Assembly (NCBI GenBank): GCA_016209275.1
Contig: JACQWM010000004.1
Coordinates: forward strand, 1-42,242
Reading direction: 5' to 3'
From: Candidatus Omnitrophota bacterium
GTDB lineage: Bacteria; Omnitrophota; Gorgyraeia; Aquiviventales; Aquiviventaceae
Length of the DNA stretch: 42,242 nt
Shown: piece by piece, positions 5,158 to 24,853 of the stretch
Layout of the letters: each line of letters starts with the position of its first letter
How positions within the stretch are numbered: the stretch's first letter is position 1
Notes under the pieces: model-generated
The model's input: only the letters and a program-made list of their open reading frames with translations
Told to the model about the DNA's origin: nothing
The model's database searches: none
Translations under genes and position numbers: made by a program

Positions 5158-6465
5158 ATGGATATCGCAGTTATTGGCGCAGGGCATGTTGGATTAGTCA
5201 CCGGGGCCTGTTTTGCCGACCTGGGGCATCGGGTCATCATGGTGGACAATGACGCCGCGCGTATCAGCGGCCTGCGGCGGGGCCTCATGCCCTACTACGA
5301 GCCTGGATTGGAGGAGCTCGTGGCGCGCGGGGTGCGGGAGAAGCGCTTAAGCTTTACCGTCTCGCTGGGCCGCGGGGTGGAGCGGTCCACCGTCCTCTTT
5401 ATCGCCGTTGGCACGCCCCAGAAGACCACCGGGGAGGCCGATCTGGTCTACGTGGAGGCGGTCGCGCGGGAGATTGCCGGCCATCTGCGCAGCTATCGGC
5501 TCATCGTGGAGAAATCCACCGTGCCGGTGCAGACCGGGCAGTGGATTGCGCGGACCATCAAGGCCCATCTGAAACGCAAGGTGTCCTTCGATGTGGCCTC
5601 CAACCCGGAGTTTCTCCGCGAGGGCACCGCGATCCAAGATTTCATGAAGCCGGACCGCGTGGTGCTGGGGGTGGAAAGCGCTCGAGCAGAGAACGCGCTC
5701 CGGGATCTCTATGCGCCGCTGCATGCCCCGCTTGTGGTCACGGATATCAGCAGCGCTGAACTGATCAAGCACGCCTCCAACTCCTTCCTGGCGATGAAGA
5801 TTTCTTTTATCAATGCGATCGCAAACATCTGCGAGCGCTCCGGCGGCGATGTGGAGCGCGTGGCGGAGGGCATGGGATTGGATCATCGCATCGGGCGGGC
5901 CTTCTTGAGCGCGGGCGTGTCGTATGGCGGATTTTGCTTTCCGAAGGACGTCGATGCGTTCATTAAGATATCAGAGCAGCTCGGATACGATTTTCAGTTG
6001 CTCAAGGCGGTCCGCGCCATTAACGAGGAGCAAAAGCGGCGGTTTGTGGCCAAAATCCATGAGGCCCTCTGGGTGGTGAAAGGCAAAACCATCGGCATCT
6101 TAGGCTTAGCGTTCAAACCGAACACCGATGACATGCGATTTGCTCCCTCCATCGACGTCATCCGCGCGCTGCAATCAGAAGGGGCCGCGGTCAAGGCGTT
6201 TGACCCGCAGGCGATGGGCGAGGCCGCGCGTCTGCTGTCTCACGTGAAGCTCTGCAAGGATCCGTACGAGGCGGCGAAGGCGGCGGATTGCGTGGCGGTG
6301 TTGACCGAATGGAACGAGTTTACGGAGCTGGATTTCGCGCGGCTCAAGAAGCTCATGCGGCAGCCGCTGATCGTGGACGGGCGAAATATCTACGAGCCGC
6401 AGCGGATGCAAGCCCTGGGGTTCCGCTACGTGGGAGTTGGGCGCAATGGCGACGCGGCTCATTAA
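5158..6465 (+). CDS. ugd: UDP-glucose 6-dehydrogenase
   Basis: This 435-residue enzyme oxidises UDP-glucose twice with NAD+ to UDP-glucuronate in the cytosol. The NAD-binding motif GAGHVG is at residues 7-12. The catalytic nucleophile is C260 in GGFCFPKD, preceded by the conserved LIKHASNSFLAMKISFINA segment with active-site Lys and Asn. The C-terminal UDP-binding domain shows GLAFKPNTDDMR. Length is typical. UDP-glucuronate is the substrate of the UDP-xylose synthase at 14414, so the two genes probably form one branch. It is the first gene after the likely promoter at 5135 and overlaps the next gene by 20 bases. Two paralogues in the window (9633 and 22398) differ at the active site. Confidence 0.95.
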   Translation: MDIAVIGAGHVGLVTGACFADLGHRVIMVDNDAARISGLRRGLMPYYEPGLEELVARGVREKRLSFTVSLGRGVERSTVLFIAVGTPQKTTGEADLVYVEAVAREIAGHLRSYRLIVEKSTVPVQTGQWIARTIKAHLKRKVSFDVASNPEFLREGTAIQDFMKPDRVVLGVESARAENALRDLYAPLHAPLVVTDISSAELIKHASNSFLAMKISFINAIANICERSGGDVERVAEGMGLDHRIGRAFLSAGVSYGGFCFPKDVDAFIKISEQLGYDFQLLKAVRAINEEQKRRFVAKIHEALWVVKGKTIGILGLAFKPNTDDMRFAPSIDVIRALQSEGAAVKAFDPQAMGEAARLLSHVKLCKDPYEAAKAADCVAVLTEWNEFTELDFARLKKLMRQPLIVDGRNIYEPQRMQALGFRYVGVGRNGDAAH

Positions 6466-7684: not shown

Positions 7685-7693
7685 AACCGGCGA

Positions 7694-7824
7694 ATTGTCG
7701 ATTGTCGATTGTCGATTGTCGATTAACGTTCGATTTGGTGATTGACGAACTACTATTTACCAATCAACAATCGGCAATCGTCAATCAAAAATTAATCGTC
7801 AATCGGCAATCGTCATTCGAAAAT
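7694..7824. repeat. Inverted heptamer-repeat element, site 2 (ATTGNCG)
   Basis: Four perfect tandem ATTGTCG units (7694-7721) are followed by ATTAACG and, after a break, ATTGACG (7741-7747). The right half carries the reverse complement family: CGGCAAT, CGTCAAT (7772-7785), CGTCAAT, CGGCAAT, CGTCATT, CGAAAAT (7797-7824). The element fills nearly the whole space between rmlA and rmlB, ending five bases before the rmlB ATG. It is AT-rich against GC-rich genes. It could fold as a long imperfect hairpin. Confidence 0.85.
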
Positions 7825-7829
7825 CCCCT

Positions 7830-11941: not shown

Positions 11942-13037
11942 TCTTCGTGCCCAATATCTCTCGATTAAGCCGGAGATCGATGCGGCCATCGCCCGGGTCG
12001 TGGACAGCGGCCAGTTTGTGCTCGGGCCTGAGGGGGAAGCGCTTGAGCAGGAGCTTGCCGCCTATTGCGGCACGCGCCACGCGGCGGCGGTCGCCTCAGG
12101 GACCGACGCGCTGATCCTCTCGCTTCGAGCCTGCGGGATCGGGCCGGGCGATGAAGTCATCACCACGGCCTATACCTTTGCGGCGACCGTTGAGGCGATC
12201 CTGCTCGTCGGGGCGACCCCGGTGCTCGTCGATATCGATCCGAAGATCTGCACGCTTGATCTGAACCAGGCGGCCGCCGCCGCAACCCCTAAGACAAAAG
12301 CGATCATCCCGGTCCATCTCTACGGGCATCCCTGTGCGATGCTTGAGCTGATGACGATGGCCAGACAACGAGGCTGGCGGGTCATCGAAGACTGCGCCCA
12401 AGCGATCGGGGCAACCGTGCAGGGGCGGCGCGTTGGCAGCTTCGGCGATGCCGGCTGCCTGAGCTTCTATCCGACGAAAAATCTCGGCGGCTATGGCGAC
12501 GGCGGCATGGTCGTGACCAACGATGCGAAGATGGCCGAGCAGGTGCGCGTATTGCGCAATCACGGGGGGCGCGAACGGTACCAGCATCTGGCGCTTGGCA
12601 CCAACAGCCGGTTGGATGAATTGCAGGCCGCCGTCCTCCGCGTGAAATTGCGTCATTTGGACGCCTGGACGCAGGCGCGGAAGACGCATGCCGCAGCGTA
12701 TGCCAACGCCTTAACGGCGGCAAAGCTGGAGGATGCGACGCTGCCCAGCACGTTGCCCGGCTATGGCCATGTCTATCATCTGTATGTCATCCAAACGCCT
12801 CATCGCGATCGCGCGCAACAGCATTTGGCAGAGCAGGGCATTGCGACACAAGTCGCCTACCCCTCAGCGCTCTGCGACCAGCCCGCGTTTCGTGAACCGT
12901 CGGTGCGATGCGCGCCGTGTCCCATCGCGCGTCGCGTGGCCCAGCGCGTCCTGGCCTTGCCGATGTATCCTGAGCTGAGTGATGAGCAGATTGAGCGCGT
13001 CGTCAAAACATTAGCCGAAAGTCTTAAGACGAATTGA
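11919..13037 (+). CDS. DegT/DnrJ/EryC1 PLP-dependent sugar aminotransferase
   Basis: This 372-residue protein should transfer an amino group from glutamate to a keto-sugar nucleotide. Family marks: IPFIDLRAQY at the N-terminus, SGTDAL in the phosphate-binding loop, the EDCAQAIGA segment, and the Schiff-base lysine K187 in FYPTKNLGGYGDGG. The ATG at 11919 gives the usual N-terminus; an open extension upstream to 11589 is only an out-of-frame reading of the epimerase gene. Within the WbpA/epimerase context a WbpE-like 3-amination is a fair guess. The TGA stop is part of the heptamer repeat that follows. Contrast the second DegT protein at 17966, which lacks the lysine. Confidence 0.9.
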   Translation: MPQIPFIDLRAQYLSIKPEIDAAIARVVDSGQFVLGPEGEALEQELAAYCGTRHAAAVASGTDALILSLRACGIGPGDEVITTAYTFAATVEAILLVGATPVLVDIDPKICTLDLNQAAAAATPKTKAIIPVHLYGHPCAMLELMTMARQRGWRVIEDCAQAIGATVQGRRVGSFGDAGCLSFYPTKNLGGYGDGGMVVTNDAKMAEQVRVLRNHGGRERYQHLALGTNSRLDELQAAVLRVKLRHLDAWTQARKTHAAAYANALTAAKLEDATLPSTLPGYGHVYHLYVIQTPHRDRAQQHLAEQGIATQVAYPSALCDQPAFREPSVRCAPCPIARRVAQRVLALPMYPELSDEQIERVVKTLAESLKTN

Positions 13038-13149
13038 CGATTGACGATTTTCGATTGACGATTAATTTTTTGAATTTTCGATTGCCAATTGTCAATCGTC
13101 AATCGCACATCGACAATTAATCGACAATCGTAACTCGATAATCGAAAAT
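13033..13149. repeat. Inverted heptamer-repeat element, site 3 (ATTGNCG)
   Basis: Units ATTGACG, ATTGACG, ATTTTCG, ATTGACG run from 13033 to 13060, then an AT-rich centre, ATTTTCG and ATTGCCA (13074-13087). The inverse set follows: CGTCAAT (13097), CGACAAT (13111 and 13122), CGTAACT, CGATAAT, CGAAAAT (13129-13149). The first unit contributes the stop codon of the upstream aminotransferase gene. The last unit, CGAAAAT, is also the last unit of site 2; it ends seven bases before the lhgO ATG. The element fills the whole gap between the two genes. Confidence 0.85.
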
Positions 13150-13156
13150 TCCTCTT

Positions 13157-21421: not shown

Positions 21422-22398
21422 GCGAGATCAAATCACTGGGCCCGTTTTTCGTCACCGGGGGCGCTGGGTTCATCGGCAGCGTGCTGGTGGATCGCTTGGT
21501 GGACGCCGGCTGCGAGGTCACGGTGTACGACAATCTCTGCCGAGGGATCAACTGGGTTGAGCCGCACGCGCGCAGCGGACGGATCACGTTCGTTGAGGCG
21601 GATTTGCTCGATCGCGATCGCGTCGCTCAGGCGATGGCCGGGACCAAATTCGTCTGGCACCTGGGGGGCAACACCGACATTCCTGCCGGGTTAAAGAATA
21701 CGGAGCTGGACATCAAGCACGCCGTCGTGGCGACGTACCATGTGCTGGAGGCGATGCGCCGGCACGGTATTGGGCCGATCGTGTTTACCTCTAGCGGCGC
21801 GGTCTACGGCCGGGCCACGGTCAGCCCCAGCCCGGAGACGTACGGGCCGTTGATGCCGCTGTCGCTCTATGGCGCAGGCAAGCTGGCCTGCGAAGGCATG
21901 ATCAGCGCCTACTGCGAAATGTTTCATCTTCGCGCGAGGATTGTGCGGCTGGGCAATGCGATCGGCGCTCGGATGGGGCATAGCTGCATCTGCGATTTCG
22001 TGAAGAAGCTGTCCAAGAACCCGCGCGAGATGGAAATCCTCGGCGATGGCAGCGGGGCCAAAAATTATTTTCTCGTGGATGAGTGCGTTGACGGAATGCT
22101 GCATCTGGTGACGCGCGTATTTTCGCCGCAGGATCCGGCATGCGACATCATCAATGTCGGGACGAGCTCATCCGCCTCGGTGATGACGATTGTGCGCATC
22201 CTGCTGGAAGAAATGGGATTGAAGGACGTGCGTTTTCGGTACACCGGAGGGGCGGAAGGCTGGCCCGGAGACCAGGCGACGGTCTACCTGGATGTGCGCA
22301 AGGTGAACGCGCTTGGCTGGTCGGCGAAGCTGACCTCGGAAGATGCGATCCGCGTGGCGATCCAGCAATATTTGAACGTGTTGGCCGGTGTGCATTGA
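21418..22398 (+). CDS. NAD-dependent epimerase/dehydratase (GalE-like SDR)
   Basis: This 326-residue extended SDR has [15 protein letters not shown], the NLCRG loop after the second strand, a HLGGNTDIPAG segment, FTSSGAVYG, and the catalytic pair in SLYGAGKLACE. It resembles UDP-glucose 4-epimerase relatives found in heptose and O-antigen clusters, but the substrate-binding part differs enough that I cannot name the sugar. The ATGA junction with gmhB suggests it works on the heptose product. Its end overlaps the next start as TGATG. Confidence 0.78.
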   Translation: MSEIKSLGPFFVTGGAGFIGSVLVDRLVDAGCEVTVYDNLCRGINWVEPHARSGRITFVEADLLDRDRVAQAMAGTKFVWHLGGNTDIPAGLKNTELDIKHAVVATYHVLEAMRRHGIGPIVFTSSGAVYGRATVSPSPETYGPLMPLSLYGAGKLACEGMISAYCEMFHLRARIVRLGNAIGARMGHSCICDFVKKLSKNPREMEILGDGSGAKNYFLVDECVDGMLHLVTRVFSPQDPACDIINVGTSSSASVMTIVRILLEEMGLKDVRFRYTGGAEGWPGDQATVYLDVRKVNALGWSAKLTSEDAIRVAIQQYLNVLAGVH

Positions 22399-23810
22399 TG
22401 CCACGACGAGCGACGCAGGTGTGCACGATTGGGTTGTGGCATTTGGGCGTGGTCACCTCGGCCTGTCTTGCGAAGCTTGGCTACCGCGTCATTGGCGTCG
22501 ATGCCGATCGCGAGCGCATCGAGCGACTCATGCGCGGTGAGCCGCCGCTGTTTGAGCCGGGACTCGCCGAGTTGATCCAGCAGCATCTCGCGGATGGCCG
22601 GCTGACCTTTACGTCGAATCTTGAGGAGGCGGTGCGGCGCGCCGAAACGGTGATCATTGCCTTCGATACCCCGGTGGATGCCAACGATGAGATCGATGTC
22701 AGCCCGGTGCGTGAGACCATCCGCGCGATCGCGCCGTGGCTGCAACCGCGCGCCATGGTCCTCATGGAAAGCCAGATGCCGGTCGGCACCTGCCAGCGGT
22801 TGAGCCACATCCTCCAACAGGCCCAACCGACGCAGCCTCCCCGCCTGGCGTATGTGCCGGAGAATTTGCGGCTGGGGAACGCCCTCGCGCGGTTCTTGAA
22901 TCCGACGATGCTGATCATCGGGGCACAGGATGAGAGCGCGAAGGAGGCGGTCGATGCGTTCTTCAGCGACGTGCCCTCGCCGCGGATCTTCATGGACCTG
23001 GCCACGGCCGAAATGACCAAGCACGCGCTCAACGCGTTTTTCGCCACCTGTGTCAGTTTCGCGAACGAATTAGGGCAGCTCTGCGATGCGGTCGGCGCGG
23101 ATGGTCTGAAAGTCGCCGACGCGCTGCGAGCCGATGAGCGCATCGGCCGGCATGCGCTGGTCGTGCCAGGAGCACCCTTTGGCGGCGGGACCTTAGCGCG
23201 CGATCTGCGAGTGCTTCAACATGTCGGACGCGCCCACGAGAGCGCGACCCCCTTGCTCGATGCGATCTTCGAGGTCAATGAACGACAGAAGCGCTTAGTC
23301 CTGACTCGACTCACACACCGTTTTGGGACGCTGAGCGGCTTGAAGGTCGGCCTGCTGGGCTTGACGTACAAAGCCGGGACGAGCACCTTGCGGCGGTCTC
23401 CGGCCTTGGAGCTTATCGGCCATCTCGTGGCTGCCGGGGCCCAGGTCAGCGCCTATGACCCAAAGGCGGATATGTCGGAACTGCGCTCCGCCATGACCTT
23501 CCGGTTATGCCACAGCGCCTACGAAGCGGCTGAAGGGATGGATGCGTTGGTCATCAGCACCGAGTGGCCGGAGTTTCGCGAGCTAGACTTTCGCGCGCTG
23601 CGAAATACGCTGCGAACTCCGTTGATTCTGGATACGAAAAACTTCCTGGATCCGGCGATGGTCATGAAGGCTGGCTGCCAGTACATCGGCATCGGCCGGG
23701 GGACGGTCCCACGCCCTGCCGCTGGCCCGAAGGGTCCTGCGCTTCGCGCAGCGCTGCCTTCGGCAGCTGCGGCAGGGCGTGGGACAGGCGCTGAGGAGCA
23801 ACGATCATGA
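22398..23810 (+). CDS. UDP-glucose dehydrogenase paralogue lacking the catalytic Cys
   Basis: This 470-residue protein has the three-domain layout of nucleotide-sugar dehydrogenases: GLWHLGVVTSACLAKLGYRV at the N-terminus, PENLRLGNAL where FNPEFLREG is usual, the EMTKHALNAFFATCVSFANE helix with Lys and Asn, and GLTYKAGTSTLRRSPA in the UDP-binding domain. In the active site GGGTLARD replaces GGFCFPKD, so T265 stands in place of the nucleophilic Cys. A full oxidation to a uronate should fail; a single oxidation, another redox step or a regulatory role is possible. The last 35 or so residues, rich in Ala, Pro and Gly, are coded mainly by the palindromic element at 23706-23785. The TGATG overlap fixes the start. 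Confidence 0.82.
   Translation: MPRRATQVCTIGLWHLGVVTSACLAKLGYRVIGVDADRERIERLMRGEPPLFEPGLAELIQQHLADGRLTFTSNLEEAVRRAETVIIAFDTPVDANDEIDVSPVRETIRAIAPWLQPRAMVLMESQMPVGTCQRLSHILQQAQPTQPPRLAYVPENLRLGNALARFLNPTMLIIGAQDESAKEAVDAFFSDVPSPRIFMDLATAEMTKHALNAFFATCVSFANELGQLCDAVGADGLKVADALRADERIGRHALVVPGAPFGGGTLARDLRVLQHVGRAHESATPLLDAIFEVNERQKRLVLTRLTHRFGTLSGLKVGLLGLTYKAGTSTLRRSPALELIGHLVAAGAQVSAYDPKADMSELRSAMTFRLCHSAYEAAEGMDALVISTEWPEFRELDFRALRNTLRTPLILDTKNFLDPAMVMKAGCQYIGIGRGTVPRPAAGPKGPALRAALPSAAAAGRGTGAEEQRS
23706..23785. repeat. Cloverleaf-like palindromic element at a gene's 3' end
   Basis: Perfect 17-bp terminal inverted repeats, GTCCCACGCCCTGCCGC (23706-23722) and its complement (23769-23785), enclose three small hairpins: a GGCCC/GGGTC stem with GAA loop (23724-23736), CTGCGC/GCGCAG with TTC loop (23737-23751) and GCTGCC/GGCAGC with TTC loop (23753-23767). 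The whole 80 bases fold as a four-armed shape. It stays open in the reading frame and codes the low-complexity tail of the dehydrogenase paralogue, starting right after GIGRG, where the first dehydrogenase (5158) would end. This looks like insertion of a small mobile palindromic element. Confidence 0.85.
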
Positions 23811-24853
23811 GAGTTGGCATCGTCGGGGCAGGGCTTCAGGCGAAGCGGCGAGCTCCTATTCTGAAGGCGTTTCCGAACACGGAGATTGTCGTCATTTCGT
23901 CGGAGCATCTGGCGTCCGCTGAAGCGCTGGCCCGTCCGCTTGGATGCGAGGCGGCGGTGGGCTGGGATTGGGTGGCTCAGCGGGATGATCTTGACGCGAT
24001 TCTGGTGTGCACGCCGCCCCATTTGCATCATGCGATTACGCTGGCCGCCGTCACGAGCGGCAAGCACGTGTTGTGCGAAAAACCGTTGGCGCGCACGCTG
24101 GAGGAGGCGACCGAGATGGTCGCCGCCGCATGGGCGGCCAAACGGGTGTTGAAATGCGGATTTAACCACCGGCATCATCCCGGGGTGATCCGAGCGAAAC
24201 ACTGGGTCGATCAGGGCAACACCGGGCCTCTTATTTTCGTGCGGTGCCGCTATGGCATTTGCGGCCGCCCCGGCTATGAGCAGGAATGGCGAGCGGATCC
24301 GGCAATCGTCGGCGGCGGGCAGTTGATGGAGCAGGGGATTCATGCGATTGATTTGGCGCGGATGTTCCTGGGCGATTTCCAGAAAGTGACCGGCTTCGTC
24401 GGCACATCGTACTGGCAGACCGGGCCGCTTGAGGATAACGGATTCGTGCTGTTGCAGACGGCGGCAGGCCAGATGGCCTCCATCCATGCCAGCCTCACCC
24501 AATGGAAGAATATCTTTTCCTTGGAAGTCTTCGGCCGAGATGGGTATGCCGTCATCGAAGGGTTGGGCGGCAGCTACGGCAACGAGCGAGTGATGCTGGG
24601 CCGTCGCGCCTTCGATGCGCCGTTTGCTGAAGAGGTGGTCGAGTTTCGCGGCCAAGATTCGTCATGGAAAGACGAATGGCGGGAATTCGCCTCGGCCATC
24701 GCCGAGGGACGCGAGCCGCTCGGCAGCGGAGCAGACGGGGTCGAGGGCATTCGCCTCGTCCTCGCGGCGTATGAGGCGGCACAGCGCGGTGTCACGGTAA
24801 GTCTTGAACCTGGGCGCGGGGCATGGGAAGAGCATCCAGCCAAACGTGCTTGA
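23807..24853 (+). CDS. Gfo/Idh/MocA family oxidoreductase
   Basis: This 348-residue NAD(P)-dependent sugar oxidoreductase has the Rossmann start VGIVGAGLQAKRR, the catalytic lysine K92 in CEKPLA, and GGGQLMEQGIHAIDL with H179 and D182 as likely active-site residues; the first acidic residue of that motif is Glu rather than Asp. Length is typical. It could be a WbpB-like enzyme oxidising C3 of a UDP-HexNAc uronate ahead of the DegT transaminase at 11919, which would also explain lhgO, or a reductase for a keto sugar in the heptose branch. The start overlaps the previous stop (ATGA) with GAGGAG at 23793-23798. Confidence 0.85.
   Translation: MRVGIVGAGLQAKRRAPILKAFPNTEIVVISSEHLASAEALARPLGCEAAVGWDWVAQRDDLDAILVCTPPHLHHAITLAAVTSGKHVLCEKPLARTLEEATEMVAAAWAAKRVLKCGFNHRHHPGVIRAKHWVDQGNTGPLIFVRCRYGICGRPGYEQEWRADPAIVGGGQLMEQGIHAIDLARMFLGDFQKVTGFVGTSYWQTGPLEDNGFVLLQTAAGQMASIHASLTQWKNIFSLEVFGRDGYAVIEGLGGSYGNERVMLGRRAFDAPFAEEVVEFRGQDSSWKDEWREFASAIAEGREPLGSGADGVEGIRLVLAAYEAAQRGVTVSLEPGRGAWEEHPAKRA

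Follow-up and report, generated by a model that had tools for sequence, protein, structure and literature searches.

A family of tiny mobile cloverleaf elements in Omnitrophota and Elusimicrobia whose surviving copies appear to be mostly readable by ribosomes

The palindrome found at the 3' end of a dehydrogenase-like gene in the window (the whole 42,242-nt stretch of Candidatus Omnitrophota DNA analysed here) belongs to a family of tiny mobile DNA elements that had not been described before and is present in two poorly known groundwater phyla, Omnitrophota and Elusimicrobia. Its members share their ends, have variable but paired interiors, are flanked by 3-bp duplications, have element-free counterparts at orthologous sites and are found inserted in frame within conserved proteins, with open frames running through the element. 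We hold it to be highly probable that we are dealing with a mobile cassette, non-autonomous and conserved in its cloverleaf fold, which inserts with a 3-bp stagger and whose surviving copies are mostly ribosome-readable.

The window copy is a near-perfect four-armed palindrome at 23706-23785 (fold z = -4.75). Its folding energy as DNA is -43.5 kcal/mol versus -29.8 ± 2.9 kcal/mol for shuffled sequences, none of the 200 shuffles equalling it, which confirms the sequence-only reading of this region as an outer stem made of perfect 17-bp inverted repeats (23706-23722 and 23769-23785) that carries three triloop hairpins. Comparison with the family trims one base from each side, the outermost G-C pair being flank, and leaves a 78-bp element with the termini YCCCACNNCCTG...CAGGNNGTGGGR. 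The features are listed below; the two genes are on the + strand and the other features are given without strand.

22398-23810, + strand: UDP-glucose/GDP-mannose dehydrogenase-like gene (Pfam), encoded from about residue 437 by the element (VPRPAAGPKGPALRAALPSAAAAGRGT) plus GAEEQRS; homologues stop after GIGRG
23704-23706: left putative 3-bp target repeat, CGG, with one mismatch to the right one (the family duplicates 3 bp in 85/98)
23707-23784: mobile cloverleaf element within its family boundaries (TCCCACGCCCTGCCGC ... GCGGCAGGGCGTGGGA), 78 bp, the ends being common to all relatives; fold z = -4.75
23707-23722: left arm of the outer stem; the first 12 bases are the family end YCCCACNNCCTG, the last 4 are copy-specific yet paired
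23724-23736: inner hairpin 1, GGCCC-GAA-GGGTC, triloop GAA, one G.T pair
23737-23751: inner hairpin 2, CTGCGC-TTC-GCGCAG, triloop TTC
23753-23767: inner hairpin 3, GCTGCC-TTC-GGCAGC, tip GCC-TTC-GGC
23769-23784: right arm of the outer stem (CAGGNNGTGGGR end)
23785-23787: right putative 3-bp target repeat, CAG (the family duplicates 3 bp in 85/98)
23807-24853, + strand: next gene, GFO/IDH/MocA oxidoreductase; its start codon and the stop codon of the extended gene overlap as ATGA

By its length, its three triloop hairpins, its common GCC-NNN-GGC tip and its reading phase, the window copy is typical of the family, and it is 82% identical to a copy in G001 across its full length. The GCC-TTC-GGC tip of its hairpin 3 is the commonest one in the family for hairpins 1 and 3.

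The element lies in frame at the 3' end of its host gene. The Pfam domains PF03721, PF00984 and PF03720 cover the dehydrogenase-like protein up to residue 419, and the motif GIGRG directly precedes the insertion. Since the homologues from sister genomes and the paralogue encoded in the window at 5161-6450 end about 0-15 residues from GIGRG, the tail of about 35 extra residues, of which 26-27 are element-encoded, is lineage-specific. It had been proposed from the sequence that the element codes for a tail beyond the point where the relative ends, and that a small mobile repeat supplied this new C-terminus without breaking the coupling to the next gene. All of this holds: the tail is absent from the homologues, the paralogue included; the TGA of the extended gene still overlaps the ATG at 23807; and the dispersed relatives, 3-bp duplications, element-free sites and tail-less homologues support the mobile origin. 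The window copy is a fusion-type insertion at the C-terminus of a UDP-glucose-dehydrogenase paralogue. As a separate observation, UDP-glucose dehydrogenase genes of two other genomes (L189:287-3115, G003 C60; L188:318-3083, G010 C45) are interrupted, within the central domain, by an intein of about 490 aa with Intein_splicing, Hint and LAGLIDADG_3 domains.

Roughly 70-130 relatives of the window element, 60-166 bp long, were found. When 59 relatives were searched with BLAST, full-length copies that are 77-82% identical turned up in other genera of the same family. In the own genome, BLAST returned the window copy alone, because the element interiors diverge. The suggested search with the 17-base arm fared likewise, the exact arm occurring once, but with the end pattern six full-length copies were found dispersed in the own genome (on C3, C4, which is that of the window, C42, C52, C56 and C59); a unique sequence was therefore rejected as a reading of the window copy. 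In 84,980 bacterial and archaeal species genomes, the strict two-ended pattern matched 27 loci, each of them in a metagenome-assembled genome (MAG) of Candidatus Omnitrophota or Elusimicrobia; all element carriers are MAGs. The reversed-pattern control for the end searches was near zero. Element ends on the forward strand numbered 48 in G022 and 43 in G010, against 0-4 for the controls, and G008 has about 28 copies in 610 kb. Viral contigs of IMG/VR gave no match to the pattern, and a viral vehicle was rejected on that account. At the end of a contig of G008, at least two near-identical element ends are clustered in tandem (L251:1-115, C15).

The constant part of the family is YCCCACNNCCTG and its complement (YCCCAC/GTGGGR, with no GTAG/CGTC tag). 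The interior differs in nearly every copy and varies greatly between copies, but it remains paired, and in nearly all copies the fold consists of a roughly 16-bp stem with two or three hairpins. Stem positions 13, 14 and 15, which the two-ended search pattern leaves unconstrained, are Watson-Crick pairs in 62, 59 and 63 of 69 copies, with several pair types at each, and RNAalifold found seven pairs with changes on both sides. In two genera (G022 and G008), the gene of a KorA-like 2-oxoacid:ferredoxin oxidoreductase holds a copy at an identical position; there, a G-C pair of hairpin 2 in one is a C-G pair in the other.

Evidence of movement came from the flanks. Among the 51 copies with TCCCAC..GTGGGA ends, 42 had identical flanking 3-mers, versus 19.7% when the flanks of different copies were paired; flanking 2-mers and 4-mers of the same 51 copies gave no signal. 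In a larger set, exact 3-bp flanking repeats were present in 85 of 98 copies, and were for the most part TGA/TCA (65), followed by CCA/TGG (7) and TAA/TTA (7), with a few ACA, AAG, CTA and CGA. The target duplications to be looked for according to the sequence-only reading are thus a property of the family; the window copy, one of the six copies with one mismatch between flanking 3-mers (CGG/CAG), has an imperfect one. At its flanks no perfect duplication was seen, and no empty-site orthologue of it was found. Such sites exist for other copies. In G089, a 91-bp copy separates two genes that we take, from our own reading of the sequences, to be gltX and cysS. Minus the element and one TGA, this junction is TGTATGATC (TGTATGAT, like that of the element-free G068, which reads TGTATGATT); in G137 and G078, also without the element, the gltX stop and the cysS start form an ATGA overlap. 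A second presence/absence pair is made by L110, which carries the element, and the element-free site of G078. The shared ends, the 3-bp duplications and the element-free orthologous sites together show that the family has moved and that its insertion took place with a 3-bp stagger.

How the copies sit in genes appears to depend on their length. Among the duplicated copies, the classes 0, 1 and 2 mod 3 number 39, 8 and 38, so that 1 mod 3 is rare. The fusion copies have a length divisible by 3 and lie within conserved domains; all copies located within a Pfam or PDB-aligned domain belong to this length class. In PckA of G019, the element corresponds to query residues 218-243; the solved homologue 1j3b aligns on both sides of the insert, up to its residue 184 and again from 183, with nothing missing. 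In-frame copies were also found within NuoF, RibF (own genome), OGG, FecR, a KorA-like oxidoreductase (two cases), TilS, a Mur ligase and a phosphodiesterase; in ComEC the element lies in another phase. In a prepilin-like gene (L108:2034-2117), the element ends in GRGI-TLIELLAV and supplies a Gly before the presumed prepilin cleavage site (TLIELL motif).

The second type has a length of 2 mod 3 with a TGA duplication, and encodes a leader of the form MIPPPx...QVVG*. In these copies the base before the first TGA is A, G or T, which places a start codon 5' of the element (36 of 36). Of 34 copies, 33 have a leader frame without any stop along the element; the other two sense frames are open in 22 and 16, the antisense ones in 15-19, and the expectation from shuffling is 14.7. 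In the low-GC subset the leader frame is open in 13 of 13, versus 4 and 4. The leaders are 26-50 codons long, and their terminal TGA overlaps the start (ATG) of the gene that follows. Upstream, an ORF of at least 50 codons (50-1294) ends exactly at the first TGA in 27 of 34 copies, which means that the insertion entered an ATGA overlap; the element is now linked by one such overlap to gene A and by another to gene B. Some TGA copies are exceptions and lack read-through: five whose length is 1 mod 3 and two whose length is 0 mod 3. Termination-reinitiation is known to take place at ATGA overlaps (PMC6728339). The two types, fusion and mini-cistron, both presumably translated, explain most of the copies; we infer that the copies which survive are mostly ribosome-readable ones. 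The literature search, made in openly accessible papers, gave no match to the mini-cistron mode, which appears to be new, and no report of palindromic elements in Omnitrophota or Elusimicrobia.

Some copies are in non-coding hosts. In G003 and G010, a tRNA gene is interrupted by a group I intron (L167:1441-1713 and L173:1381-1685), which holds a copy at the same position in both. The C42 copy of the own genome is within a c-di-GMP-I riboswitch (L151:1532-1673), upstream of a protein with a Y1-transposase domain. Such locations suit an element that is tolerated wherever a loop can be extended.

Candidate mobilisers were sought in several ways. In 610 kb of G008 there was no multi-kb element with family ends; the sole weak end pair, 3.7 kb apart, was rejected as an autonomous parent, its ends resembling those of the family in the seed only. 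Nor was a longer element with family ends present at the examined PF01609 and PF01797 loci, and DDE_Tnp_1 proteins are absent from most carriers. The REP-associated transposase to be looked for according to the sequence-only reading is not supported as mobiliser: Y1 genes are present in 16 of the 20 genomes examined, element-free ones included; none was found in the carrier G018; and no element end was near any of the ten Y1 loci checked. The one Y1-domain gene about 0.5 kb from the C42 copy is a lone neighbour, not flanked by repeats. Both DDE_Tnp_1 and Y1 transposases were rejected as mobilisers for want of linkage to the elements. Target duplications of 3 bp are not expected of Y1 enzymes. 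The idea that the middle arms are copies of host targets was also rejected, their matches being mostly to other elements.

The sequence of events that we propose is the following. The cassette has terminal repeats with 12 constant bp, followed by 4 bases that vary but pair, and as a rule three hairpins. An enzyme, probably acting in trans, would make a staggered cut of 3 bp, mostly at TNA (TGA/TCA), and insert the cassette there; the conserved folded form might reflect recognition of a cruciform or of a single strand. When the length is a multiple of 3, the element and its duplication would add about 26-30 residues (..PPPA....AGGG..) inside, before or after the host protein. With a length of 2 mod 3 in an ATGA overlap, the duplicated TGA would turn it into a mini-cistron: gene A would stop at the first TGA, and the leader would start on the first ATG and end on the TGA overlapping the ATG of gene B. 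Lying between two ATGA overlaps, the leader would keep translational coupling, and the translating ribosome would melt the hairpins. Selection would afterwards retain the copies that ribosomes can read.

A bolder version, which we regard as possible though rather unlikely, is that the element evolved as a mini-gene: it would recognise ATGA overlaps or TNA, be moved by a novel system acting on the folded strand, have an interior selected to be both paired and stop-free, and invade operons without breaking the neighbours. As an add-on to it, the leader peptides may act on the host or on the movement of the element itself. That the element is instead an immobile regulatory RNA belonging to these genes, an attenuator or a leader-peptide hairpin, is suggested by its strong conserved fold and by the many copies encoding a leader peptide coupled to the next gene. 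We consider this very unlikely: copies occur in unrelated genes, within protein domains, in a group I intron and in a riboswitch, the target duplications and element-free orthologous sites speak against it, the empty sites already contradicting it, and the window copy matches no Rfam family (the sole match, to mir-2756, was below threshold and was rejected as due to chance).

A REP-type palindrome moved by a RAYT/Y1 transposase would also be palindromic, dispersed and sometimes intragenic, and Y1 genes are common in the genomes examined (16/20). Such an origin is hard to believe given the consistent 3-bp duplications, the length of 60-166 bp, the ends devoid of a GTAG/CGTC tag and the lack of association between elements and Y1 genes, which exist in element-free genomes, were not found in the carrier G018 and have no element end nearby (0/10 loci). 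There is similarly little to be said for an insert that is removed at the RNA level or skipped by ribosomes, as are mobile bypassing elements in some mitochondria, and so remains untranslated. The stable hairpin and the entry into highly conserved protein regions (PckA, NuoF) would suit it, but all domain-internal copies have lengths divisible by 3 and the leader stays free of stops in 33 of 34; such length classes and stop-free frames make no sense unless the element is translated. Finally, one could take the window copy by itself for a GC-rich palindrome that arose by chance, or for a local duplication, foreign to the family in either case, as its single exact arm and its flanks without perfect duplication might suggest; this is contradicted by its BLAST relatives, its exact family ends, 78-bp length, triloop hairpins, GCC-NNN-GGC tip, reading phase and 82% identity to the G001 copy, and has practically no chance of being right.

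Taken as a mobile cassette, the element can be set beside known systems. Its lifestyle is closest to that of the Rickettsia palindromic elements (RPEs), to which the sequence-only reading had likened it. RPEs are described as about 150 bp long and as in-frame inserts of unrelated genes (Ogata 2000, 2002, as reviewed in PMC10969869), and those of R. conorii end in CGTC (PMC3733652). Both are short, palindromic, probably mobile repeats that form dispersed families and lie in frame within unrelated protein genes, where they encode an inserted peptide. The Omnitrophota/Elusimicrobia element differs by its other ends, without CGTC, its cloverleaf with constant 12-bp ends and variable interior, its clear 3-bp duplications and its second mode, the ATGA-flanked mini-cistron. 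Its strict ends were found only in these two phyla among the 84,980 genomes, RPEs being compared by description; the likeness is one of lifestyle only, and membership is unsupported, because taxa and ends differ.

Miniature inverted-repeat elements (MITEs) are the right broad class, although no parent transposon turned up in 610 kb of G008 or at the PF01609 and PF01797 loci covered, and the interior of the element is a coding one. The element shares with them its small size, terminal inverted repeats, fixed 3-bp target-site duplication (85/98, with empty sites) and lack of a transposase gene. It differs in that no parent transposon with the same ends was found and that, instead of decayed transposon sequence, it has a structured interior with one stop-free frame. 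REP/RAYT palindromes (PMC3733652) are likewise palindromic, dispersed and in part intragenic, but the element is longer (60-166 bp versus a 20-40 bp palindrome with a GTAG or CGTC tag at one end), carries no such tag, has terminal repeats and a 3-bp duplication, and is not linked to a RAYT gene flanked by repeats (0/10 Y1 loci near element ends). Length, end tags and linkage thus exclude membership. The GC clusters of yeast mitochondrial DNA and the mobile bypassing elements are also tiny, GC-rich, folded mobile sequences able to enter genes; the present element is bacterial, has constant terminal repeats and is, judging from its frames, translated and not skipped. The 3-bp duplications argue against an integron attC identity.

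In-frame palindromic mobile elements have hitherto been treated as peculiar to Rickettsia and its kin. If our reading is true, a second, unrelated family in two other phyla implies that small mobile DNA repeatedly adds peptides to essential proteins, and the ATGA mini-cistron mode is a route by which foreign DNA may enter an operon with neither gene disturbed. The annotation of Omnitrophota and Elusimicrobia genomes is affected as well, as the elements create N-terminal extensions and small ORFs.

Other repeats were seen along the way. The genus of G089 has two further dispersed repeats, a palindrome of about 38 bp and a 99-bp repeat with many near-identical copies (L110:4500-4583 and 7721-7820). 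The window itself contains, at 7692-7825 and 13033-13151, two AT-rich arrays of AATCGTCAATCG-like units, in inverted orientation and about 5.3 kb apart.
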